This document shows positions 20,207-23,093 of a stretch of DNA of 64,000 bases, in pieces. This stretch comes from Streptomyces sp. PCS3-D2 (GTDB lineage: Bacteria; Actinomycetota; Actinomycetes; Streptomycetales; Streptomycetaceae): the NCBI RefSeq assembly GCF_000612545.2, contig NZ_CP097800.1, positions 3,883,001-3,947,000 on the forward strand. Reading direction: 5' to 3'. Under the pieces are notes generated by a model. That model searched no databases. It worked only from the letters and a program-made list of their open reading frames with translations, and had not been told where the DNA came from. A program made the position numbers and the translations under genes. Each line of letters opens with the position of its first letter. Within the stretch, counting starts at the first letter, position 1.

Positions 20207-22003
20207 ATGACCATTCAGGACGCACGCACGCCTGCCGTCAGCCAGGACGCCGACGGCTCGACCGAGCGCAAGCCGGGCTGGCACAAGGGCTACGTGGCGG
20301 GCTCCCGCCCCGACATCCGGGTGCCGGTCCGCCAGGTCCACCTCACCAACGGCAAGGACGTGACGCTCTACGACACGTCCGGTCCGTACACCGACCCGCA
20401 GATCGAGACCGATGTGCGTCGGGGCCTCGCGCCGCTGCGCGAGAACTGGATCATCGGCCGCGGCGACACCGAGGAGTACGCCGGACGCCCGGTCCGCCCC
20501 GAAGACGACGGCATCAAGCACACCTCGCCGCGCGGCGGCCTCAAGAACCTCGACGCGGTCTTCCCGGGCCGCCCCCGCCAGCCCCGCCGGGGCCGCGACG
20601 GGGCCGCCGTCACGCAGCTCGCGTACGCCCGCCGGGGCGAGGTCACCCCGGAGATGGAGTACGTCGCGATCCGCGAGAACGTCTCCGCCGAGGTCGTCCG
20701 TGAGGAGATCGCGGCAGGTCGCGCGGTGCTCCCCGCGAACGTGAACCACCCGGAGATCGAGCCGATGATCATCGGCAAGAAGTTCCTGGTGAAGGTCAAC
20801 GCCAACATCGGCAACTCCGCCGTCACCTCCTCGATCGAGGAGGAGGTGGAGAAGATGACCTGGGCGACCCGCTGGGGCGCCGACACGGTCATGGACCTCT
20901 CGACGGGCCGCAACATCCACACCACCCGCGAGTGGGTCCTGCGCAACTCCCCCGTGCCGATCGGCACCGTGCCGCTCTACCAGGCACTCGAGAAGGTCGA
21001 CGGCCGTGCCGAGGAGCTGACCTGGGAGATCTACAAGGACACGGTCATCGAGCAGGCCGAGCAGGGCGTCGACTACATGACGGTCCACGCCGGCGTGCTG
21101 CTCCCGTACGTGCCGCTGACCGCCCGCCGCAAGACCGGCATCGTCTCGCGCGGCGGCTCGATCATGGCCGCGTGGTGCCTCGCGCACCACAAGGAGAACT
21201 TCCTCTACACGAACTTCGAGGAGCTCTGCGAGATCCTGGCGACGTACGACGTCACGTACTCGCTGGGTGACGGCCTGCGCCCGGGGTCCATCGCGGACGC
21301 CAACGACGCGGCGCAGTTCGCGGAGCTCAAGACGCTGGGCGAGCTCAACACCATCGCCAAGCGCCACAACGTGCAGACGATGATCGAGGGCCCGGGCCAC
21401 GTCCCGATGCACAAGATCAAGGAGAACATCGACCTCCAGCAGGAGATCTGCGAGGAGGCGCCCTTCTATACGCTCGGCCCGCTCACCACGGACGTGGCGC
21501 CCGCGTACGACCACATCACCTCGGGCATCGGCGCCGCGATGATCGCCTGGTGGGGTACGGCGATGCTCTGCTACGTCACGCCCAAGGAGCACCTGGGCCT
21601 GCCCAACCGGGACGACGTCAAGACCGGCGTGATCACGTACAAGATCTCGGCGCACGCCGCCGACCTCGCCAAGGGACACCCGGGCGCCCAGGAGTGGGAC
21701 GACGCCCTGTCCGACGCGCGGTTCGAGTTCCGCTGGGAGGACCAGTTCAACCTGGCCCTGGACCCGGACACGGCGCGTGAGTTCCACGACGAGACCCTTC
21801 CCGCCGAACCGGCCAAGACCGCGCACTTCTGCTCCATGTGCGGTCCGAAGTTCTGCTCGATGAAGATCAGCAGAAGCATCACAGAGCAGTTCGGTGGCGA
21901 TGAGCCGGCGGCCTCGGAAGAAGAGATCGCCGAGGGCATGCTCAAGAAGTCGGCGGAGTTCGCAGCCTCGGGCAACCGGGTCTACCTGCCACTGGCCGAC
22001 TGA
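20207..22003 (+). CDS. thiC: phosphomethylpyrimidine synthase ThiC
   Basis: A 598-residue radical-SAM enzyme that converts aminoimidazole ribotide to HMP phosphate, the pyrimidine half of thiamine. Signature blocks run through the protein: [19 protein letters not shown] (near residue 145), [27 protein letters not shown] and the C-terminal [12 protein letters not shown]. The three Cys in this last block (CxxCGPxFC) ligate the 4Fe-4S cluster. Expression is under the TPP riboswitch. The last 45 codons after CSMKI use codons rare in the rest of the gene (AGA, ACA, GCA). A second, orphan copy of the same 3' end lies 1 kb downstream, so the end of this gene may have been replaced by recombination. 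Confidence 0.97.
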
Positions 22004-22016
22004 CCCAGCCGAAAGG

Positions 22017-22054
22017 ACCGGCCCGCGACCTCATGGGGGGAGTCGCGGGCCGGT
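22017..22054. terminator. terminator after thiC
   Basis: ACCGGCCCGCGAC (22017-22029) pairs perfectly with GTCGCGGGCCGGT (22042-22054) around the loop CTCATGGGGGGA. It serves thiC and the converging lipoprotein gene, whose stop is at 22059. Confidence 0.88.
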
Positions 22055-22058
22055 GTCG

Positions 22059-22790
22059 TTACTGCGGTGCGCCTGTTTGCTGGGCTGCACGGAGGCGTTC
22101 TATCTGCTTTGTGATGAGGTCGGCTGGGAAGGAGGCGGTTCCACCCACGTTGAGCGCCGAGAAGGACGCGATGGTGTTGCCGGTCCGTACGACGACAAAC
22201 GTCTCGTTGCGGTCTCCCCCCTTCTCGGCACCCAGGGGAATGGTTTCCGTGTAGCTGACTGCTTCGTCCCCGAAGGACGGAGCCGGCGCCGGCGCAACCG
22301 TGGCGGTGAACTTTCCGGACCAAGCCTCGCCGTCGTAGGTCCGGCAGGAGGAGAGCGACTGCCTGAGATCCACGAAGCGCTGCTGGGCCCTGCCGTCCTC
22401 ATAGGAAGCGAGGGTCGAGCCGCCGCCCCAGATGTCGTCCTTCCAGTTGAAGATCTGGAAGATGTGAGCGTGTGAATCCCTGGCATTGAGTACGTCACGG
22501 ACGGTTTGGCAGGCGGGGACCGAGGCCGGTGCGAAGGATCGCCTAGTGCCCTCGGGCACGGGTTCCTGCACTTCGATGAGGCCGTCGCGTACCTGCGGAA
22601 CTTCGCCGTTCTTGAAGGCGACAGCTTTCAGCTGCATCAGCGTCAGAGGTGCCGCCGTAGCCGCGGGCGAGGGGGCGGAAGACGGTGTCTCCTGCTGGGA
22701 TGTCGACGAGGACGCTGTGGTGCACCCAGTTGCGGCGAACAGGGCTGTGATGGCAGCGGTCGGCAGTAGCCATCGCGTACGGGCTTGCAT
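22059..22790 (-). CDS. hypothetical secreted lipoprotein
   Basis: A 243-residue protein with a lipoprotein signal: a basic start ([10 protein letters not shown]), a hydrophobic core, and the lipobox ATGC, with Cys about residue 21. A Ser/Thr/Pro-rich linker (residues 22-50) and a soluble domain of about 190 residues follow ([49 protein letters not shown]). The two Cys may form a disulfide. I do not recognise the domain; the general look is of Streptomyces sensor-type lipoproteins of unknown function. The gene lies exactly between thiC and a duplicate thiC 3' end, and its base and codon use look less GC-rich than its neighbours, consistent with a recent insertion. Confidence 0.75.
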
Positions 22791-22882
22791 GGTCCCCCCG
22801 GACTCTTGTGGACGAGAGGTCGACGCTAGCGAGTGGGATACGTGCTCACCAGCACGTTTCGATGAAGAGTGTGGGGGTGGAG

Positions 22883-23026
22883 ATGTGCTCGATGAAGATC
22901 TCGCAGGACATCCGCCGCGAGCACGGCGGGGACCTGAAGGCGGAGGAGATCCAGGCCGGCATGGCGGAGAAGTCCGCCGAGTTCGCGGCCTCGGGCAACC
23001 GCGTCTACCTCCCGCTGGCCGACTGA
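22883..23026 (+). pseudogene. orphan thiC 3'-end fragment
   Basis: The 47 in-frame codons [16 protein letters not shown]...[15 protein letters not shown] repeat the C-terminus of ThiC. The last 18 residues (KSAEFAASG...LPLAD) are identical to the intact gene, while the middle differs ([10 protein letters not shown] against [10 protein letters not shown]). The 15-bp TGCTCGATGAAGATC occurs in both, at 21854 and 22886, 1,032 bp apart. There is no thiC sequence 5' of it and it cannot encode a working enzyme. It is followed by its own terminator, of the same design as that after thiC. It is best read as the displaced original end of thiC. Confidence 0.85.
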
Positions 23027-23050
23027 GACCGGCCGTCAGGTACCGGATGC

Positions 23051-23093
23051 GGCGCGGACCCGCGACCCATGGGGGGAGTCGCGGGTCCGCGCC
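23051..23093. terminator. terminator after the thiC fragment
   Basis: GGCGCGGACCCGCGAC (23051-23066) pairs perfectly with GTCGCGGGTCCGCGCC (23078-23093) around CCATGGGGGGA. The inner stem and loop nearly match the hairpin at 22017. It also serves the converging glycosyltransferase gene, whose stop is at 23095. Confidence 0.88.

Follow-up and report, generated by a model that had tools for sequence, protein, structure and literature searches.

The 3' end of thiC as a probable attachment site for serine-integrase elements and small gene cassettes in Streptomyces

Described elements and the thiC locus

Actinomycete integrative and conjugative elements (AICEs), cis-mobilizable elements (CIMEs) and the accretion of such elements are already known. 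The present analysis concerns the 3' end of thiC, the gene for phosphomethylpyrimidine synthase, in a stretch of 64,000 nucleotides from Streptomyces sp. PCS3-D2 (contig NZ_CP097800.1, positions 3,883,001 to 3,947,000; hereafter the window). This end probably serves as an attachment site for elements of this kind; none of the papers searched describes this site at thiC. A search that was thin on subscription papers and covered main texts found nothing that connects thiC with such integrative elements. The main texts on AICEs that were searched (PMC3218068, PMC8584621, PMC3017869 and PMC9513070) do not mention thiC.

Of 144 AICEs, 19 have serine recombinases, and one group of these lies within protein genes (PMC3218068). 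Accretion and decay have been described, as has an AICE in rlmN with 11-nt repeats (PMC9513070), and CIMEs are regarded as decayed integrative and conjugative elements (ICEs) or integrative and mobilizable elements (IMEs) (PMC5704250). CIMEs and accretion arrays consist of units that are flanked by att sites, lack integration genes and stand in tandem at the end of a gene (PMC5704250), a layout that the small units at thiC appear to share. The thiC units differ in their size of about 1 kb, in often having one selected gene, in their related short right ends and in a cassette that takes varying array positions. IMEs with serine recombinases are said to lie within genes and to disrupt dispensable ones (PMC5704250), whereas at thiC the target gene appears to be restored by a foreign tail some 45 codons long. 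PAISt of Streptomyces turgidiscabies likewise integrates site-specifically into the 3' end of a protein gene, bacA, and shows modular excision; it differs in being a large island with an 8-bp palindrome (PMC4057263).

The AICE remnant SCO3937 of S. coelicolor contains serine integrase, RepSA and Tra homologues, and this remnant, or Gi-5 (SCO3929-SCO3937), shares genes of the serine integrase, RepSA, TraSA and GntR types with the elements at thiC (PMC8584621). Gi-5 has been reported as absent from S. lividans, which PMC3017869 partly disputes. Two differences were noted: the unit in the window has no AICE gene, and the accessible text describes no replacement 3' end for the known element. The SCO3937 remnant is the nearest named element to the thiC-site AICEs. 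SCO3928 is, we assume, thiC. Integron gene cassettes are small one-gene units with a short recombination sequence, and they form arrays of varying order. The thiC units resemble them in unit size, short end and array order, whereas their anchor is the 3' end of a housekeeping gene; no integron integrase or attC was noticed, and no search aimed at either was made.

Native and foreign ends of thiC

The core word TGCTCGATGAAGATC, which encodes the last Cys of the CxxCxxxxC motif of thiC and the following codons, was found twice in the window, at 21854 and 22886, with a spacing of 1,032 bp (Table 1). The initial annotation had read a second thiC 3' end at this distance, each end followed by a similar hairpin and the two separated by a lipoprotein gene on the opposite strand, and this layout was confirmed in its essentials. 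The two ends contain an 84-nt direct repeat of 81% identity and finish alike in NRVYLPLAD and the stop codon; counted from the Cys codon, the attached end has 49 codons and the displaced one 46. Strong hairpins follow both (z = -4.6 and -6.6, respectively), with a CATGGGGGGA stretch in common, and the gene between them is a minus-strand open reading frame (ORF) of 243 amino acids. It had also been stated that no integrase is present, and indeed the 1,032-bp unit contains no recombinase ORF. The genome of the window has no match at E ≤ 1e-100 to the integrase found at thiC in other genomes (see below).

A survey covered 140 thiC loci, namely the window and L061-L200 minus L066, which is without thiC. 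The first 40 thiC-bearing loci (the window and L061-L100 minus L066) were largely picked for extra matches to thiC ends or to the lipoprotein, as near kin, or for high-scoring tails. L101-L180 are further loci with an end of the attached kind (type A, ISRSIT or ISQSIT), and L181-L200 are a sample of loci with the kind of the displaced end of the window (type B). A displaced thiC end was located downstream in 27 of the 140 loci, at 0.8-12.7 kb, a proportion that is not a frequency because the picks were enriched: 18 came from the first 40 loci, nine from the 80 further type-A loci and none from the 20 type-B loci. Relics of displaced ends in G269 and G012 fell below the cut-off of the hidden Markov model and were excluded from this count. 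In the readable displaced ends the core is in the same place, ...ATGAAGAT, and it was unreadable in eight. One genome, G025, has two thiC genes with the same type-A end, in L073 (contig C1) and L074 (contig C3); one of these contigs is 146 kb long.

The window ends were compared with 44 of the other 139 loci, those with enough of the thiC body. The six thiC bodies closest to that of the window (94.2-94.9% nucleotide identity) all belong to type-B loci, and their ends are 87-97% identical to the displaced end and 63-70% to the attached one. The best relative of the attached end is in G331 (90%), followed by six loci of five other genomes (84-86%). Since the ends of the near kin match the displaced copy, the displaced end is native and the attached end foreign. 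Two loci, L080 (G054) and L182 (G078), have a type-B end followed directly by the conserved neighbour, at +239 bp and +238 bp, respectively, and may be read as empty thiC sites. The proposal that a DNA segment bringing its own end had displaced the native one while thiC stayed in frame is supported by this comparison, and the checks suggested with it turned out as predicted: the downstream copy is of the native kind, the attached copy is of a distant type, and apparent empty sites exist.

The unusual codons reported for the attached end were confirmed on the wider set. Among the 114 type-A loci, ACA encodes the Thr of SIT in 41 of 89 cases; in the final 900 nt of the thiC bodies it accounts for 46 of 2,317 Thr codons (2.0%). 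All 114 type-A loci encode the first Ser beyond the core by AGC or AGT. Such a bias in the first type-A codons fits a putative recombinase half-site at this position.

A FastTree tree was computed from 149 thiC bodies; 18 of the survey loci were left out (L074 and those with less than 1,020 nt of the body), and 20 type-B loci and seven loci from the scan described below were added. The type of end changes at least 25 times on this tree, 11 of the changes being forced by well-supported branches. Shuffled labels need 40 changes, and therefore the end types are also clustered on the tree.

Integrase elements and small units at thiC

Complete elements were found between an attached and a displaced end in G106 (12.0 kb), G051 (12.7 kb) and G098 (10.7 kb). 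All three carry ORFs for a serine integrase, a RepSA-type Rep, an FtsK-type Tra and a GntR-like protein. Pfam runs covered the integrase (Resolvase, Recombinase and Zn ribbon) and Tra of G106, the Rep of G106 and G051 (RepSA) and the GntR of G098, and the other members were assigned by similarity. Integrase, Rep and Tra are likewise all present in G105 (10.8 kb). Rep and integrase without a Tra match were observed in G303 (an element of 5.2 kb), G265 and G220, while in G377 the fetched stretch holds Tra and Rep and the integrase lies further along the same contig. The minimal element, of 1.9 kb, is that of L101 (G257), in which a serine integrase alone lies between the thiC ends, 0.2-1.8 kb after the core.

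The thiC-site integrase, at 74% identity or more, was present in 10 of 393 genomes. In nine of them it shares a contig with thiC and lies no more than about 14 kb away, and in the tenth, G217, integrase and thiC are on different contigs. Below 74%, 14 further integrase places passed E ≤ 1e-100, with 38-47% identity, in 12 further genomes plus G257 and G265. Seven of these places were compared with thiC in position: those in G025, G074 and G134 lie 0.9-2.6 Mb away from it, and those in G309, G257, G265 and G222 are on another contig. In seven of the eight fetched loci, 71-76 bp separate the end of the integrase match from the first matched residue of the displaced end that follows; the eighth is G257, whose displaced end is decayed. 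Site-specific recombination is preferred mainly because the integrase adjoins the displaced end in the manner of an int-attP module. A phage origin of the integrase was rejected: the best phage record reached 28% identity, and the plasmid collection gave 41% at best, from a Nonomuraea record of 11.9 Mb.

The Ser codon preceding ATGAAG is identical at the attached and displaced ends in 30 of 36 rows, or in 27 of 33 once three apparent repeat genomes are removed; the rows of L101 and L134 come from decayed ends. Among the five distinct hosts in which this codon is AGC, the displaced end also has AGC in four. A shared codon would be expected from identity at the crossover point, and common ancestry would give the same. 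Downstream of thiC in L099 (G124) and L098 (G212) there are short stretches of 263-274 nt with 76-85% identity to AICE or integrase loci, as well as a fragment of Rep (50%); these are likely traces of decayed AICEs.

The small units measure about 0.5-2.6 kb (3.7 kb in G331) and often hold one cargo gene. They sometimes form arrays, and two extra thiC ends in a row were found in G235, G153 and G276. No match to the thiC-site integrase was detected in the small units at E ≤ 1e-6 (survey loci) or 1e-5 (scan loci). The latter come from a degenerate half-site scan of 84,980 species, which returned 19 loci. All 13 loci from Streptomyces have a displaced thiC end, with thiC inside the fetched 8 kb in 10 of them, and the six others, which are unrelated, have no thiC end.

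Eleven survey ends and nine scan ends made up a set of 20 right ends, after L202, L205, L208, L215 and L218 had been dropped as apparent repeats of survey genomes. The nine scan ends were picked by a pattern over positions -8 to -1, hence only -25 to -9 is informative for them. The consensus of the 20 ends, GnCTCnGGGCTGAAGCTGTCCTCG, stands immediately before ATGAAG. Their mean pairwise identity is 0.46-0.69 from -25 on and 0.25-0.31 further left; over -25 to -9 it is 0.56 for the scan ends and 0.51 for the survey ends, against a background of 0.26-0.27. The right ends of the small units are thus related to each other, and at three positions they differ almost uniformly from the native arms of thiC. 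Position -5 is C in 19 of 20 ends (10 of 11 in the survey set), which the scan pattern partly dictated, and G in all 147 native arms. Position -7 is G in 18 of 20 (survey set, 9 of 11) against C in 146 of 147, and position -20 is C in 16 of 20 but G in all 147 arms. On these sequences, the small units end in a variant left half of the thiC site, either inherited from a common source or kept up by a recombinase, while the AICEs end in another half-site, ...AATGTTCTACTCG. When each member was left out in turn and scored on the profile of the others, 16 ends reached 13-25 bits, one 10.8 and three 4.6-9.0. Native thiC arms also score on this profile (5.8-13.9 bits, median 13.1, over 140 loci; 12.0 for that of the window).

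By its layout the 1,032-bp, one-gene unit of the window belongs with the small units. It is inserted exactly at the thiC core and comes with a replacement 3' end, as in the serine-integrase elements, and it lacks the integrase, Rep and FtsK-like Tra that G106, G051, G098 and G105 all have at the same site. Its right end, AGTGTGGGGGTGGAGATGTGCTCG, is 29% identical to the AICE-type half-site, which is about background (seven AICE ends). A CIME would have both att sites and no genes for integration or transfer; in the window unit the core is repeated with no recombinase or transfer gene between the copies, but the right half-site is ambiguous.

No Pfam family was found for the 243-amino-acid cargo protein of the window, and a weak profile match was obtained to the PknH sensor domain 4esq (E 0.066); AATGC lies at the likely lipid-bearing Cys of the ORF. 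It had been suggested that this lipoprotein be sought next to thiC in other genomes, and relatives do adjoin thiC 3' ends in G201, G235 and G269 (51-54% amino acid identity), with a broken one in G012. In L066:7280-7800 (G377, contig C84) a decayed relative and a remnant of a thiC tail stand between unrelated genes, the thiC of this genome being on contig C77; this stretch looks like an ectopic cassette relic. In the AICE of G098 a lipoprotein-type gene occupies the same place, and has the same orientation, as that in the window. That it represents an earlier stage of the window cargo was rejected, as the two show no detectable similarity (E 0.68).

Other cassettes recur as well. A quinone-oxidoreductase and HxlR pair is the sole cassette in G302, the first of two in CoH27 and the second of two in S. 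guryensis; the copies of the last two strains are 96.6% identical over 1,591 bp, and their thiC bodies 94.2%. A second family, of 331-335 amino acids, makes up the only cassette in G365 and in G122 and the second one in CoH27, where the gene spans two frames and may be broken; the G365 protein has no match in Pfam. Further cargo comprises TerD-TerF-like genes, GtrA with DUF2142, lipoproteins and four further proteins without a Pfam family. A TerD-TerF-like vWA gene (Pfam on L092 only) and similar DNA recur downstream of thiC in L092, L124 and L082; in L082 they lie beyond the displaced end, and otherwise they form the cargo of thiC cassettes. The ratio of non-synonymous to synonymous substitution (dN/dS, Nei-Gojobori) was 0.34-0.41 for the lipoprotein (four pairs) and 0.14-0.15 for the oxidoreductase (three pairs), and on these figures the tested cargo is under purifying selection.

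Besides the thiC locus, the window contains the Streptomyces small RNA Scr3920 (Rfam RF02828, 113 bits) at 13936-14060. Near the thiC site, at 24443-25306, lies a gene for a collagen-like protein with GAT/GPT-type repeats, which has matches in the relatives L067, L068 and L079.

Table 1. Positions of thiC and of the parts of the inserted unit in the window.
Feature	Position	Strand	Remark
Thiamine pyrophosphate riboswitch of thiC	20068..20212	+	39 bits, under the Rfam gathering score of 54.3
thiC (phosphomethylpyrimidine synthase)	20207..22003	+	ORF of 598 amino acids, 3' end apparently replaced
Core TGCTCGATGAAGATC	21854..21868	+	Proposed attL crossover region
Attached thiC 3' end	21854..22003	+	Type A, proposed to be element-derived
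Hairpin 3' of the attached end	22017..22054	+	Common to the G012 cassette
Cassette cargo, lipoprotein-type	22059..22790	-	243 amino acids, without Pfam family
Right half-site region of the window unit	22868..22891	+	Weak match to the small-unit profile
Displaced thiC 3' end	22886..23026	+	Type B, native
Hairpin 3' of the displaced end	23050..23094	+	

Proposed mechanism and alternatives

It is likely that a serine-integrase element uses the 3' end of thiC as its attB and supplies a replacement for this end, and that the window unit is a CIME-like version without integrase. The attB would lie at TGCTCGATGAAGATC within the thiC 3' end, and recombination there would be site-specific. The circular element would have its attP inside its own thiC-like 3' end, and the integrase would join attP to the thiC attB. 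By this exchange thiC would gain the tail of the element (type A) and its terminator and remain in frame, and the native tail (type B) would be left at the far side with the cargo between the tails. The autonomous versions would be the AICEs, with a serine integrase of about 520 amino acids, RepSA and an FtsK-like Tra. The small units would retain both ends without the enzyme, as remnants, as CIMEs moved on the arrival of an AICE, or as a self-standing non-autonomous family. The window cassette may have been reduced from an integrase element or be a non-autonomous unit, its lipoprotein being kept by purifying selection. This integrase family or a relative would have moved the window unit. We hold the thiC site, the replacement of the tail and the role of the integrase to be probable; the mobility of the small units is put forward more cautiously, at somewhat less than an even chance.

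Several observations weigh against this explanation. Over -24 to -9 the right ends of the small units are 27-31% identical to those of the AICEs, while they are 54-55% identical to host thiC left of the core and 53-58% to each other. An attP half-site would not have to resemble thiC in this way. The right end of the window over the same positions is ambiguous, with 38% identity to the native thiC arm, 39% to the small units and 29% to the AICE ends; it scores 3.9 bits on the small-unit profile without TCG, and within the 21 kb around it 37 of 20,976 forward positions and 27 reverse ones score as high. No integrase-bearing element with a right end of the small-unit kind was found. The joined AICE ends form an imperfect dyad only, pairing at no more than 13-16 of 25 positions when 40 axes were tried (no shuffled control), and native stretches of attB reach 12-15; this dyad was not counted as support for a half-site. 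Cassette and end type are loosely linked, as G201, G269, CoH27, PH10-H1 and sk2.1 have type-B attached ends. Type A as a mark of integrase elements only was rejected, since type-B ends also head cassettes. Finally, G012 has the cassette of the window, with the same terminator, a lipoprotein gene with two large gaps and a relic of the displaced end, AGATCTCGCAGGACATCCGCC, and attaches a type-B end to it. Ends can therefore be exchanged without the cassette, presumably by homologous recombination.

The best-surviving alternative, to which we give a little less than even weight, is that the window unit is the decayed remnant of one integrase element, a plain CIME that lost integrase, rep and tra and kept the lipoprotein, and that the small units are immobile. 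It is a special case of the explanation preferred here. Decay of AICEs has been described (PMC9513070), and two elements resemble stages of it, that of G303 (5.2 kb) being without a match to Tra and that of G257 (1.9 kb) holding the integrase alone. The 3.1-kb unit of G124 with its 263-274 nt shared with AICE or integrase-match loci, the Rep fragment of G212, 1.6 kb after thiC, and the similarly placed lipoprotein-type gene in the AICE of G098 point the same way. Against these stand the small units without an integrase match and with a right end unlike that of the AICEs, the recurrence of one cassette at different array positions, and the lack of detectable relationship between the lipoproteins of G098 and the window.

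Homologous or illegitimate recombination alone is unlikely. By this route short homology would have let in a donor thiC end and its neighbour gene, together with a copy of about 25 bp of thiC from the left side of the core. The initial annotation had taken homologous exchange for the simplest route, and part of this idea stood. The type-B end on the G012 cassette shows that ends do get exchanged, the end type changes frequently on the tree, and the right ends of the small units are thiC-like over about 24 bp left of the core (54-55% at -24 to -9, background identity beyond -25). As the simplest or sole route of insertion it was rejected, because serine-integrase elements share the same base in nine genomes, at which many displaced ends start. 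These elements would be left unexplained, and so would the near-fixed differences of the right ends from thiC at -5 and -20. Homologous exchange seems not to be needed for insertion and to swap ends afterwards. That the thiC 3' end was simply duplicated in tandem and then diverged, a reading suggested by two similar ends 1 kb apart, is extremely improbable and was rejected, as the ends are of two types, each shared with different genomes, have another gene between them and do not group together to the exclusion of other genomes.

A bolder extension of the site-specific mechanism, which we regard as tentative, is an integron-like cassette system of Streptomyces anchored in a housekeeping gene, in which a serine integrase working in trans may insert units of about 1 kb at thiC, stack them and shuffle them. 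Each unit would then combine a short half-site resembling thiC with a spare thiC 3' end and, in many cases, a single adaptive gene, and thiC might stay functional throughout.

If true, the proposed mechanism would account for the two alternative tails of a conserved metabolic gene and for their repeated change across Streptomyces. It would also define a self-repairing integration site with its own serine integrase family, a possible genetic tool, and would make thiC a small hot spot for following gene acquisition.

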